Translations under genes and position numbers: made by a program
Notes under the pieces: model-generated
What the model was told of the DNA's origin: nothing
Seen by the model: the letters and a program-made list of their open reading frames with translations, nothing else
Database searches by the model: none
Assembly: GCA_938073745.1 (NCBI GenBank)
Contig: CALJFR010000052.1
Span: forward strand, 1-34,384
Reading direction: 5' to 3'
Origin: an uncultured Flavobacteriales bacterium
Lineage (GTDB): Bacteria > Bacteroidota > Bacteroidia > Flavobacteriales > BACL11
Length of the DNA stretch: 34,384 nucleotides
Shown here: positions 22,032 to 27,121 of the stretch, piece after piece
Layout: the number at the start of each line of letters is the position of its first letter
Numbering within the stretch: the stretch's first letter is position 1

Positions 22032-23753
22032 ATGGGTTATTCTTCATTAAGAAGTTGTATTGATGATTTAGAAAAGAATGGATTTCTTATAAGAATTTCT
22101 AAAGAAGTAGATCCTAATTTAGAAATGGCATCTATACATCTTAAAGAATTTGAGAATTCAGGAAAAGCTATTTTATTTGAAAATGTAAAGGGAAGTAAAT
22201 ATCCAGCTATATCTAATATTTTTGGTTCTGTAGAAAGAAGTAATTTTATATTTCGTAAGTCAATTAAGAAAGTAAAGAAGTTAATTGATTTGAAAATGAA
22301 TCCAATTAATGGATTTAAAGACCCTATATCTTCACTTAAAAGTGCTGTTTACGCGACAATGGCTTTACCTAAAAGAGTTAGTTTTCCTAATGATTTTGAA
22401 GAGATTAAAATTTCTGAAATTCCACAAATTAAATGTTGGCCTGATGATGGAGGAGCATTTATAACTCTTCCACAGGTTTATTCTGAAGATGTTATGAGTC
22501 CCGGAATTATGAATTCAAATTTAGGAATGTACAGAATACAAATAAGTGGAAATGAATTTATAAAGGATAAAGAAATTGGTCTACATTATCAAATCCATAG
22601 AGGTATTGGTATTCATCAAAAGCATGCAGTTGAGAATGGAGAAAATTTAAAAGTTTCTATCTTTATTGGTGGTCCTCCTTCACATACTTTTGCTGCTGTT
22701 ATGCCATTGCCAGATGGCATGTCTGAAATTACATTTGCTGGTATACTAGAAGGAAGAAGGTTTAGATATGCACTCAAAGATGGATATACAATTTCTACTG
22801 ATGCTGATTTTGTAATTTGTGGTGAGGTAAGTACTGATTTAAAACCTGAGGGTCCTTTCGGAGATCATTTAGGATATTATAGTTTAACTCATGACTTTCC
22901 ATTTTTAAAAATACATAAAGTTTATGCTAAGAAAAATGCAATTTTTCCATTCACAGTTGTAGGAAGACCACCTCAAGAGGATTCTCAATTTGGAAAGCTA
23001 ATACATCAAATGACAGGTAAAGCAGTTGAAAATGAAATCCCAGGTCTTAAAGCCGTAAATGCTGTTGATGAATCAGGAGTTCATCCACTTTTATTAGCAA
23101 TAGGAAAAGAGAGGTATACACCATATAACCCAACTAGAGCACCTCAAGAAATATTAACTATTGCTAATCATATTTTAGGAACAGGTCAGCTTTCTTTGGC
23201 AAAGTATCTACTAATTATAGAAGATGAAAATGCTCCAGATATTAATAATAAAAAAGAGTTTTTCAAACATTTATTACAACATGTTGATTGGTCAAGAGAT
23301 TTACACTTTCAAACTAACACAACAATTGATACATTGGATTACTCAAGTAAAGAGTTAAATCATGGGTCAAAATTAATTATAGCTGCAGCAGGTAAAAAGA
23401 AAAGAAATTTACTTACTGAATTTTCCCCCTATAATCTTTCAAATAAATTTAATAGCCAGGTTTTAGTTATAGATGGTATATTAGCAATTGATGGCAAAGG
23501 TAGTATTGAAGAACTAATTAAAGAATTAGAAAAATATGATACTACTGGAATAGCACTAATAACATTTGTTGATGATGCTAATTTTGTTTCTGAAGATTTT
23601 AGTAATTGGTTGTGGGTTTGTTTTACAAGATCTAATCCATCTCATGATGTTTATGGTCTAAACATGAAAATAGAAAACAAACATTTCTCATGCACACTTC
23701 CGATTATAGATGCCAGAATTAAGCCACATCATGCTCCTGTTTTAACTCGTTAA
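22032..23753 (+). CDS. UbiD family decarboxylase (prFMN-dependent family)
   Basis: LRSCIDDLEKNGFLIRISKEVDPNLEMASI, AILFENVKGSKYPAISNIFGS, GPFGDHLGYYSLTHDFPFLKIHKVYAKKNAIFPFTVVGRPPQEDSQFGKL. Confidence 0.9.
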   Translation: MGYSSLRSCIDDLEKNGFLIRISKEVDPNLEMASIHLKEFENSGKAILFENVKGSKYPAISNIFGSVERSNFIFRKSIKKVKKLIDLKMNPINGFKDPISSLKSAVYATMALPKRVSFPNDFEEIKISEIPQIKCWPDDGGAFITLPQVYSEDVMSPGIMNSNLGMYRIQISGNEFIKDKEIGLHYQIHRGIGIHQKHAVENGENLKVSIFIGGPPSHTFAAVMPLPDGMSEITFAGILEGRRFRYALKDGYTISTDADFVICGEVSTDLKPEGPFGDHLGYYSLTHDFPFLKIHKVYAKKNAIFPFTVVGRPPQEDSQFGKLIHQMTGKAVENEIPGLKAVNAVDESGVHPLLLAIGKERYTPYNPTRAPQEILTIANHILGTGQLSLAKYLLIIEDENAPDINNKKEFFKHLLQHVDWSRDLHFQTNTTIDTLDYSSKELNHGSKLIIAAAGKKKRNLLTEFSPYNLSNKFNSQVLVIDGILAIDGKGSIEELIKELEKYDTTGIALITFVDDANFVSEDFSNWLWVCFTRSNPSHDVYGLNMKIENKHFSCTLPIIDARIKPHHAPVLTR

Positions 23754-24961
23754 TTTTTCTTTTTGTTCCAATATTTTTTTTTCTTTTTTTTCTTTTGAAA
23801 AATTACATATTTTGGACCATTTGAAAAATTGTTAGGTAAGTTAATTTTTGGTACTGTATTTTCAATAAGCTTTTCAATATCCATAAAATTACTTACTTGA
23901 TTACTGTTTATAAATGTTATGGCTTCACCAGTTTTATCAGCTCTAGCAGTTCTTCCTATTCTGTGAACATAATCCTCTGCGTCATGAGGTACTTCATAAT
24001 TAATTACTAATTCTATACCTTTAATATCAATCCCCCTAGATAAAATATCTGTTGCTACTAGTATTTTTATTTTTTTGTTTTTAAAATCTCTTATTGTACT
24101 TTCTCTTTGTTCTTGATTTAGTTCTGAATGCATATCACTTGATTTAAAACCAGATCTATTTAATGTTTTCTTTATTTCTTTTACACTCTTAATGCTAGAA
24201 GCAAAGATTAAAACATGACTCAAAGGTTTTTCTTTGTTTTTTTTAATAAATATTTCTTTGATAAGTTGTACTTTTTGTTCATCATGAACAAGGTACGCTG
24301 TTTGCTTTATTCCTGATGCTGGTTTAGAAATAGCTAAGCTTATGCTTTTTGGATTTTTAAGAATGTTTTCTGCAAGCTTTCTGATTTTTTTTGGCATTGT
24401 AGCGGAAAACAAAAGTGTTTGTCTTGATTCTGGTATTTTTTTAGCAATCTTAATTATATCATCATAGAAACCCATATCTAACATTCTATCTGCTTCATCT
24501 AAAATTAGATAATCTATATGTTTCGTGTCAAAATAGTCAAATTTTAGGTGAGCCATTAATCTTCCAGGAGTACATATAATAATATCTGTTCCTTTTACTA
24601 AAGCTTGTTTTTGATTTTCAAACTCTGGTCCAGTTCCACCCCCATATATTGGATACGATGAAGAATTAGTGAAATATGAAAATCCTTCTATTTGCATATC
24701 TATTTGCTTTGCTAGTTCTCTTGTTGGAGCTATAATTAGTGCTTTAACTTTATTATTTTGCTTTTTAGAGGAAATGAGGCTGAGAATTGGTAGAACAAAT
24801 GCGGCAGTTTTACCAGTTCCTGTTTGAGCGCAAGCTATTAAATCATCACCACTTAAAATAATTGGTATTGATTGTTGTTGAATAGGAGTAGCATCTACAA
24901 ATCCCATCATTTCCAAGCCATCTTCTAAGTTTTTATTTAGATTAAAGTTGTTAAATTTCAT
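23750..24961 (-). CDS. DEAD-box ATP-dependent RNA helicase (RhlE-like)
   Basis: TPIQQQSIPIILSGDDLIACAQTGTGKTAAFVLPIL, LILDEADRMLDMGF, LLFSATMP, VATDILSRGIDIKGIELVINYEVPHDAEDYVHRIGRTARA; Lys-rich tail. Confidence 0.97.
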   Translation of the reverse strand: MKFNNFNLNKNLEDGLEMMGFVDATPIQQQSIPIILSGDDLIACAQTGTGKTAAFVLPILSLISSKKQNNKVKALIIAPTRELAKQIDMQIEGFSYFTNSSSYPIYGGGTGPEFENQKQALVKGTDIIICTPGRLMAHLKFDYFDTKHIDYLILDEADRMLDMGFYDDIIKIAKKIPESRQTLLFSATMPKKIRKLAENILKNPKSISLAISKPASGIKQTAYLVHDEQKVQLIKEIFIKKNKEKPLSHVLIFASSIKSVKEIKKTLNRSGFKSSDMHSELNQEQRESTIRDFKNKKIKILVATDILSRGIDIKGIELVINYEVPHDAEDYVHRIGRTARADKTGEAITFINSNQVSNFMDIEKLIENTVPKINLPNNFSNGPKYVIFQKKKKKKKYWNKKKN

Positions 24962-24975
24962 TTATAAAACTTTTG

Positions 24976-25404
24976 TTATTTTTCATTATTAATAATATGA
25001 TTGATTTTTTTTAAAATATTAAAAAAAGTATCCATTTCAGATTTATTAAAATGAGAAAAAACTTTGTTGTTAAAATCTAAAACTATTTCTTTTGCAACTT
25101 CTCTACCAGCTAATCCTGATTTAGTTAAATGAATAATTGATTTTCTTTTGTCTTTAGGGTCAGGTTTTCTAGTAATATAGCCGCTTTTTTCAAGTTTATT
25201 TAATGATCTTGAAAGCGATGTAGATTCCATTCCCATATTTGGCCCTAGTTGAGTAGAAGGAGTTCCTTCTATCATATCTATGTTTAAAACAATCATTGCT
25301 AGTGATGTGCTAGCCATATAATCTGTGGCTGTCCGATTATACATTTTAGTTATATTAAACCATGTTTTTCTAATATTATAGTCTATAGTATCTTCTGGTT
25401 CCAT
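24976..25404 (-). CDS. MarR family transcriptional regulator
   Basis: 142 aa winged-helix: GPNMGMESTSLSRSLNKLEKSGYITRKPDPKDKRKSIIHLTKSGL. Confidence 0.94.
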   Translation of the reverse strand: MEPEDTIDYNIRKTWFNITKMYNRTATDYMASTSLAMIVLNIDMIEGTPSTQLGPNMGMESTSLSRSLNKLEKSGYITRKPDPKDKRKSIIHLTKSGLAGREVAKEIVLDFNNKVFSHFNKSEMDTFFNILKKINHIINNEK

Positions 25405-25436
25405 ATTTATAATTATTTTTATAAATATAAGAATTT

Positions 25437-25454
25437 AACTATGCAAGCATAGTT
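25437..25454. promoter_or_regulatory. Perfect 8-bp inverted repeat with 2-bp spacer (AACTATGC-AA-GCATAGTT); candidate MarR operator
   Basis: Lies in the 88-bp divergent gap between the MarR gene (start at 25404, -) and the acyl-CoA ligase gene (start at 25493, +). Confidence 0.72.
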
Positions 25455-25492
25455 TTTGCTGAACTTTTAAAGAATATAAATAATTACACAAT

Positions 25493-27121
25493 ATGAACAA
25501 TTTAACAACTTTAGATTGGCTCTACAAATGGGAGAAAGAAAAACCAAATTCTATTTATTTAAGTCAACCAATAAACGGTGTATGGCATAATTGGACATTT
25601 TATGATTTTGGACAAGAAGTTAGAAAAATGGCAGCCTACATAAGATCCTTAAATTTAAAAAAGAATTCAAAAATTGGTATTCTTTCAAAAAATTGTGCAC
25701 ATTGGATTATGTCTGATTTAGCTATTATGTTGTCAGGACATATTTCTGTTCCACTTTATCCAAACCTAAATTCAGAATCATTAAATAAAATTTTATTGCA
25801 TAGTGAAACACAACTTCTTTTTGTTGGAAAGCTTGATAATTTTGACTTAATGAAAGATGGTATTCCATCTAATATTAATTGTATTACTTTTCCATTTTAT
25901 TCGCAAGATTATCCAATTTGGGATGATTTAATAAAAGGTATTCAACCAATCGAAGATAATGTAGAAAAAAATGCAAATGAATTAGCATCAATTATTTATA
26001 CATCTGGAACTACTGGAGATGCAAAAGGCGTAATGCATAGTTTTGCCAATTTTAGTTTTGCAACTATTAATGCTAGCAAATCATTAGAAATAGTGAATAG
26101 AGAAATTTTCTTTTCATATCTTCCATTAAGTCATATTGCTGAAAGATTATTAATTGAAATGTGTAGTTTATACACAGGAAGTAGAGTTTATTTTGCTGAA
26201 AGTCTTGAAACTTTTGCCGCTAATTTGTCTTATGCTTCTCCTACAGTTTTTTTAGGAGTTCCAAGAATTTGGACAAAATTTCAACAAGGTATTCTTCTGA
26301 AATTGCCTCAAAAGAAATTAGATATATTATTGAAGATACCATTTGTATCATTGTTAATTAAAAATAAAATTAAAAAGGGACTAGGTTTAAAAAGAGCTAA
26401 TAATGTCTTTACAGGTGCTGCACCTACTCCTATCGCAACTATTAATTGGTTTGCAAAACTTGGAATATTTATTCAAGAAGCATATGCAATGACAGAAAAC
26501 ACTTGCTATTCGCATGTCACTCTAAAAGATAACATACGCGTTGGATATGTTGGACAGGCATTACCAAAATGTGAAGTTAAATTTAGTCAAGAAAAAGAAA
26601 TTTTAATTAAGCATGAGGCTTTAATGCTTGGTTATTATAAAGATATTGATAAAACTAATGAGATTATAAAAGATGGTTGGCTTCATACAGGCGATGAGGG
26701 AGAAATCGATAAGGATGGTTTTTTAAGAATAACAGGAAGAGTAAAAGATATTTTTAAAACTTCAAAAGCAAAATATATAGCTCCATCACCGATAGAAATG
26801 AAATTATCCGAGAATAGTAATATTGAACAAGTATGTGTTGTTGGTACGGGAATACCACAGCCAATAGCTTTGGTTGTTTTATCTGATAATGCAAAAAAAT
26901 CAATTAATTATAAAGCGTCTATTGAAGAAACTTTAAAAGATGTTAATCAAACATTAGATAAGCATGAGGTCATTCATAATTTAATAGTAGTTGATGATGT
27001 TTGGACGGTTGAAAATAAGTTTTTAACCCCATCTATGAAAATTAAAAGAAAGACTATTGAGAAAAAATATCAAGCTAATTACTCAACTTGGTACGATCAA
27101 AATACTATTATAGTACTTTAA
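25493..27121 (+). CDS. Long-chain acyl-CoA synthetase / AMP-dependent ligase (FadD-like)
   Basis: AMP-binding motif IIYTSGTTGDAKGVMHS; YAMTENTCYSH; DGWLHTGDEGEIDKDGFLRITGRVKDIFKTSKAKYIAPSPIE. Confidence 0.95.
   Translation: MNNLTTLDWLYKWEKEKPNSIYLSQPINGVWHNWTFYDFGQEVRKMAAYIRSLNLKKNSKIGILSKNCAHWIMSDLAIMLSGHISVPLYPNLNSESLNKILLHSETQLLFVGKLDNFDLMKDGIPSNINCITFPFYSQDYPIWDDLIKGIQPIEDNVEKNANELASIIYTSGTTGDAKGVMHSFANFSFATINASKSLEIVNREIFFSYLPLSHIAERLLIEMCSLYTGSRVYFAESLETFAANLSYASPTVFLGVPRIWTKFQQGILLKLPQKKLDILLKIPFVSLLIKNKIKKGLGLKRANNVFTGAAPTPIATINWFAKLGIFIQEAYAMTENTCYSHVTLKDNIRVGYVGQALPKCEVKFSQEKEILIKHEALMLGYYKDIDKTNEIIKDGWLHTGDEGEIDKDGFLRITGRVKDIFKTSKAKYIAPSPIEMKLSENSNIEQVCVVGTGIPQPIALVVLSDNAKKSINYKASIEETLKDVNQTLDKHEVIHNLIVVDDVWTVENKFLTPSMKIKRKTIEKKYQANYSTWYDQNTIIVL

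Follow-up and report, generated by a model that had tools for sequence, protein, structure and literature searches.

An autorepressing MarR protein with a divergently transcribed target is a well-known kind of system. FadR, PsrA and other repressors of fatty-acid degradation belong to the GntR or TetR families. The regulator that we describe here resembles FadR and PsrA in that one protein is predicted to stand over fadD, fadBA, fadE and the etf genes, with release by acyl-CoA probable. It differs from them in being a MarR protein with another operator and, in one lineage, in having secreted lipases among its predicted targets.

The Rhodococcus jostii protein CouR is a MarR repressor of p-hydroxycinnamate catabolism that is released by p-coumaroyl-CoA; its operator is one inverted repeat lying between divergent promoters and overlapping both -35 boxes (PMC4737184). 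CouR has in common with the regulator in our window (the whole stretch of DNA analyzed, 34,384 nucleotides) the MarR fold, an arrangement of one inverted repeat flanked by divergent promoters, and acyl-CoA chemistry in the controlled pathway. By analogy it is the nearest working precedent, although it serves the p-hydroxycinnamate pathway and the window protein is only 16-21% identical to it in a fold alignment. AesR of Corynebacterium glutamicum, a MarR protein of aromatic-response genes, also has an autoregulated divergent promoter (PMC13413800). Its half-site is the same (ACTATG-N3-CATAGT in AesR, ACTATG-N4-CATAGT in the window), but the spacer is one base shorter, the genes respond to aromatics and the phylum is another. 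A further MarR protein, FabT, represses the synthesis of fatty acids in streptococci and enterococci. It too has a lipid regulon and is encoded by the first gene of the operon that it controls (PMC13046290), but that regulon is one of synthesis while the Flavobacteriales regulon is one of degradation.

The Flavobacteriales count among the major degraders of sea and soil, and some of them are pathogens of fish. Expression of the beta-oxidation genes of Flavobacterium psychrophilum increases sharply in response to fish mucus and plasma; the main text of that study names no MarR regulator (PMC9723704). A literature search, with subscription papers mostly outside its coverage, returned no account of this MarR, its motif or its regulon, and an order-wide fatty-acid MarR regulon of Flavobacteriales appears to be undescribed.

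The palindrome and its neighboring genes

A sequence-only reading of the window had pointed out a perfect palindrome in an 88-bp gap between divergent genes for a MarR regulator and an acyl-CoA ligase. On re-reading we found its sequence, coordinates, divergent genes and gap to be correct. The palindrome is 18 bp long, with 8-bp arms and an AA spacer, and the gap lies between the marR ATG at 25404 (minus strand) and the ligase ATG at 25493 (plus strand). The features are:

25437..25454, no strand: putative palindromic operator, AACTATGC-AA-GCATAGTT; the arms fit the order-wide consensus [C/T]TATGC-N2-GCATA[G/A]
24976..25404, minus strand: MarR-family regulator, 142 aa (Pfam MarR PF01047, 4e-10)
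25493..27121, plus strand: acyl-CoA ligase, FadD-like, the divergent target (AMP-binding PF00501, 1e-57; AMP-binding_C_3)
25422..25429, minus strand: predicted marR -7 box, TATATTTA; one mismatch to TAnnTTTG, beginning at offset 9 from the 16-bp operator
about 25462..25469, plus strand: weak candidate ligase -7 box, AACTTTTA; two mismatches, at the mirror position (offset 9), placed by analogy with other targets

The regulator carries a MarR winged-helix domain (39.9 bits against PF01047, cut-off 24.6), and its AlphaFold2 model (pLDDT 88.9) has the MarR fold, a winged helix flanked by N- and C-terminal dimerization helices. A fold search with this model matched structures of MepR, SlyA, CouR and FabT; the best PDB matches were MarR proteins, many with a TM score of about 0.8. 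Guessing the ligand from this search was abandoned, as CouR and FabT were both among these generic, non-discriminating matches. Assignment to a named subfamily was likewise rejected because no NCBIfam equivalog reached its own cut-off: BilQ, the best-scoring named one, gave 55.3 bits (cut-off 125) and FabT 31 bits (cut-off 200). We propose that this protein is the owner of the operator and is autoregulated. The top NCBIfam matches of the ligase were fatty acid-CoA ligases, all below their cut-offs, and its specificity is probably for long chains. A DEAD-box RNA helicase gene (23750-24961, minus strand) begins 14 bp past marR, and the two genes may share a transcript.

Taken singly, the palindrome is only weakly unusual. 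Palindromes with 8-bp arms and a spacer of at most 4 arise in 9% of Markov-shuffled 88-bp regions (16% GC), and the window holds 15 of them. The case for an operator therefore rests on conservation across genomes. No second copy with up to 3 mismatches occurs elsewhere in the window. In the assembled portion of the source genome (~54%) we likewise found no second site: all other matches with up to 2 mismatches, including a 1-mismatch match at C13:8855, fall inside coding sequences and were rejected as second operators.

Conservation and probable loss of the operator at marR promoters

Two sets of marR promoters were compared. The family set held MarR orthologues from 37 of the 52 genomes of the window's family, which named records, including Cryomorphaceae bacterium BACL11, place among marine Flavobacteriales. 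The order set consisted of 40 marR promoters from other Flavobacteriales families, picked by marR alone and with the motif ignored. A promoter was scored positive when at least 11 of the 14 positions of ACTATGCNNGCATAGT matched. The operator was found upstream of marR in 39/40 promoters of the order set and in 27/37 of the family set, so the conservation in relatives that the sequence-only reading had named as a check is present; shuffled promoters reached the same threshold in 0.3-0.5% of cases. Over 66 orthologous marR promoters the TATGC-N2-GCATA core was nearly invariant, with no more than one deviating sequence at any position. Many family members have a second operator copy closer to the ligase, while ten that retain marR have no palindrome at its promoter. 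The sole order-set orthologue without the palindrome upstream has an intact marR gene.

In relatives, marR heads a marR-fadB-fadA-fadE operon in which fadB overlaps marR by 14 bp, and the ligase is divergent from marR in 34 of the 37 family loci with room upstream. The marR-fadB arrangement is also present in other families, in several of which the ligase lies upstream in tandem. Being placed between the ligase and marR-fadB-fadA-fadE, the operator would control the whole unit of activation and beta-oxidation.

In the window, the DEAD-box helicase lies downstream of marR, where fadB stands in the relatives that retain beta-oxidation. FadB was found neither in the assembled 54% of the window's genome nor in the related genome G019 (88% complete). 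The operator was retained in all 18 family genomes with both marR and fadB compared to 9 of the 19 with marR only (p = 4e-4). A decay of the operator after loss of the operon would give this pattern, and we interpret the window locus as an operator-marR-ligase remnant after loss of fadBAE.

Predicted targets of the operator across Flavobacteriales

We inspected 53 loci with the exact motif. The site precedes marR in 18-19 of these, etfB in 18 and the acyl-CoA dehydrogenase gene fadE in 6, and most of the others are genes for lipid enzymes, among them FabH (two sites) and, with one site each, 2,4-dienoyl-CoA reductase, an acyl-ACP desaturase, a serine-palmitoyltransferase-like enzyme and a FabK-like enzyme. 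At most of the etfB sites the gene is divergent from that for pyruvate dehydrogenase E1 beta, and there the two genes share the operator. Allowing one mismatch brings in a second ligase promoter and the promoters of three TonB-dependent receptors from three genera. At the latter the operator lies 74-77 bp before the start codon, and these receptors possibly serve lipid or fatty-acid uptake.

Within the window's family, extra sites precede genes for BD-FAE esterases, a number of which carry a type IX secretion tail, and for secretory lipase, patatin phospholipase and one SprB/GEVED protein. This gene content suggests that lipid scavenging is under MarR control in marine Flavobacteriales.

Across the order, fadD, fadB/A, fadE and the etf genes have a common operator; in the window it lies at marR and the ligase only. 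The operator thus appears to mark a fatty-acid-degradation regulon, a larger circuit than had been proposed. The sequence-only reading had predicted a MarR operator common to divergent promoters in fatty-acid or acyl activation, and both the conservation and the functions of the targets support this. The genome scan for further copies that it suggested gave sites at other fatty-acid genes in relatives but none in the assembled part of the genome itself.

We lean, with some reserve, toward a still broader interpretation. A single MarR, traces of which occur in other orders of Bacteroidia, may be the master repressor of fatty-acid degradation in Flavobacteriales and fill the role that FadR or PsrA have elsewhere. 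Its regulon would have been rewired in small-genome marine lineages, with operators at secreted lipases and phospholipases and with stepwise decay after loss of fadBAE, the window keeping only operator, marR and ligase. The analysis supplies a candidate for the regulator, a site of 16 bp and a list of targets, all testable in culturable Flavobacterium or Chryseobacterium, and a site definition that can be used to annotate lipid-use regulons in uncultured marine genomes.

Promoter geometry, proposed mechanism and alternative readings

The sigma-A -7 box of F. psychrophilum is TAnnTTTG, at -12 to -5 (PMC9723704). The spacing from the operator end to TAnnTTTG is 9-11 bp at marR, mostly 9 at fadE and mostly 8-12 at lipase genes. 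Within the family almost every marR promoter has a spacing of 9-10; in the order set it is mostly 10-11. Two close relatives of the window have a perfect box, TATATTTG. Given these conserved boxes 9-11 bp from its end, the operator would span about -36 to -21 at promoters of the marR class. At etfB the box begins 18-21 bp after the operator, one helical turn further, which would place the site at about -46 to -31; the second copy before the ligase in family members has this longer spacing too. Both placements fit repression. By the same comparison, the -7 boxes that the sequence-only reading had put inside the palindrome (TAGTTTTTG on the plus strand at the right arm, TATGCTTG on the minus strand in the core) are off the conserved position and were rejected. 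The comparison puts both boxes outside the palindrome, with the operator upstream of those of marR and the ligase. A scan of the window for TAnnTTTG matches did not pick up the ligase box at 25462..25469.

The sequences themselves show that the operator is conserved and co-occurs with MarR, what its targets do and how it is spaced from the promoters; from them we infer the binder, repression as opposed to activation, and the ligand. The palindrome very probably serves as operator for the MarR encoded next to it, which would repress the divergent marR and ligase genes as part of a fatty-acid-degradation regulon. A MarR dimer would bind TATGC-N2-GCATA, placing a winged helix on each half-site. 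It would thereby cover about -36 to -21 of both divergent promoters and exclude RNA polymerase from each. Once fatty acids have been taken up and the ligase has activated them, acyl-CoA (or fatty acid) would most likely release the repressor. Acyl-CoA would be a natural signal because it is both the product of the neighboring ligase and the substrate of FadE. Judging from the content of the regulon, a long-chain acyl-CoA is a reasonably likely ligand.

One alternative is that MarR binds as an activator, or that its ligand, perhaps an aromatic or a xenobiotic, lies outside fatty-acid metabolism. Response to aromatics is common among MarR proteins and is seen in AesR, which has the same half-site, and the etfB-class spacing puts the site where activators can also work. 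However, enzymes of beta-oxidation and acyl-CoA metabolism, ETF and lipases make up the great bulk of the targets, and the commonest operator position overlaps the core promoter. We therefore regard this alternative as unlikely, and repression by MarR as very likely.

Another possibility is that the palindrome is a regulon operator recognized by some other transcription factor that co-occurs with it, and that marR is just one of several targets of that factor. The genome-wide distribution bears on this. Exact copies of the motif were found in 121 of 348 Flavobacteriales genomes, mostly one per genome, while a reversed-motif control was found in 0/348. MarR (E up to 1e-10) is present in 234 of the 348, among them 120 of the 121 motif-positive genomes; the exception is G345 (92% complete, about 360 contigs). 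The motif thus occurs in 120/234 marR-positive compared to 1/114 marR-negative genomes (Fisher p = 1e-25, or 4e-13 with one reduced-genome family omitted, both uncorrected for phylogeny). These counts were compared by eye from two tables, and the genomes are not independent events. Besides G345, the genomes G048 (99% complete) and G041 carry sites without a detected marR, in their case 1-mismatch sites before lipase genes. In G048, an assembly of 2 contigs, the frame of the secretory lipase is broken by several stops; assembly frameshifts may hide marR there, or the decay may be real. Against a different factor stand the co-occurrence with MarR, the near-universal site at marR itself, the DNA-recognition region of MarR, which is among the most conserved parts of the protein across Flavobacteriales, and the use of the ACTATG half-site by the footprinted MarR protein AesR (PMC13413800). 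A different factor is quite improbable in our judgment, and the adjacent MarR is almost certainly the binder of the palindrome.

The idea of a chance palindrome or a regulator-free structural element, such as a terminator-like hairpin, was rejected despite the frequency of such palindromes in shuffled regions and in the window, since the core is near-invariant across the order, promoter spacing and gene context are fixed, and it is the sequence itself, beyond mere symmetry, that is conserved.

In a class-wide sample drawn mostly from other orders, the motif was rare, occurring in 20 of 346 genomes, eight of those being Flavobacteriales. Outside the order, several of its sites again stand in front of genes that, judged by the starts of their sequences, encode a MarR orthologue, an acyl-CoA dehydrogenase or an acyl-CoA carboxylase-like protein.
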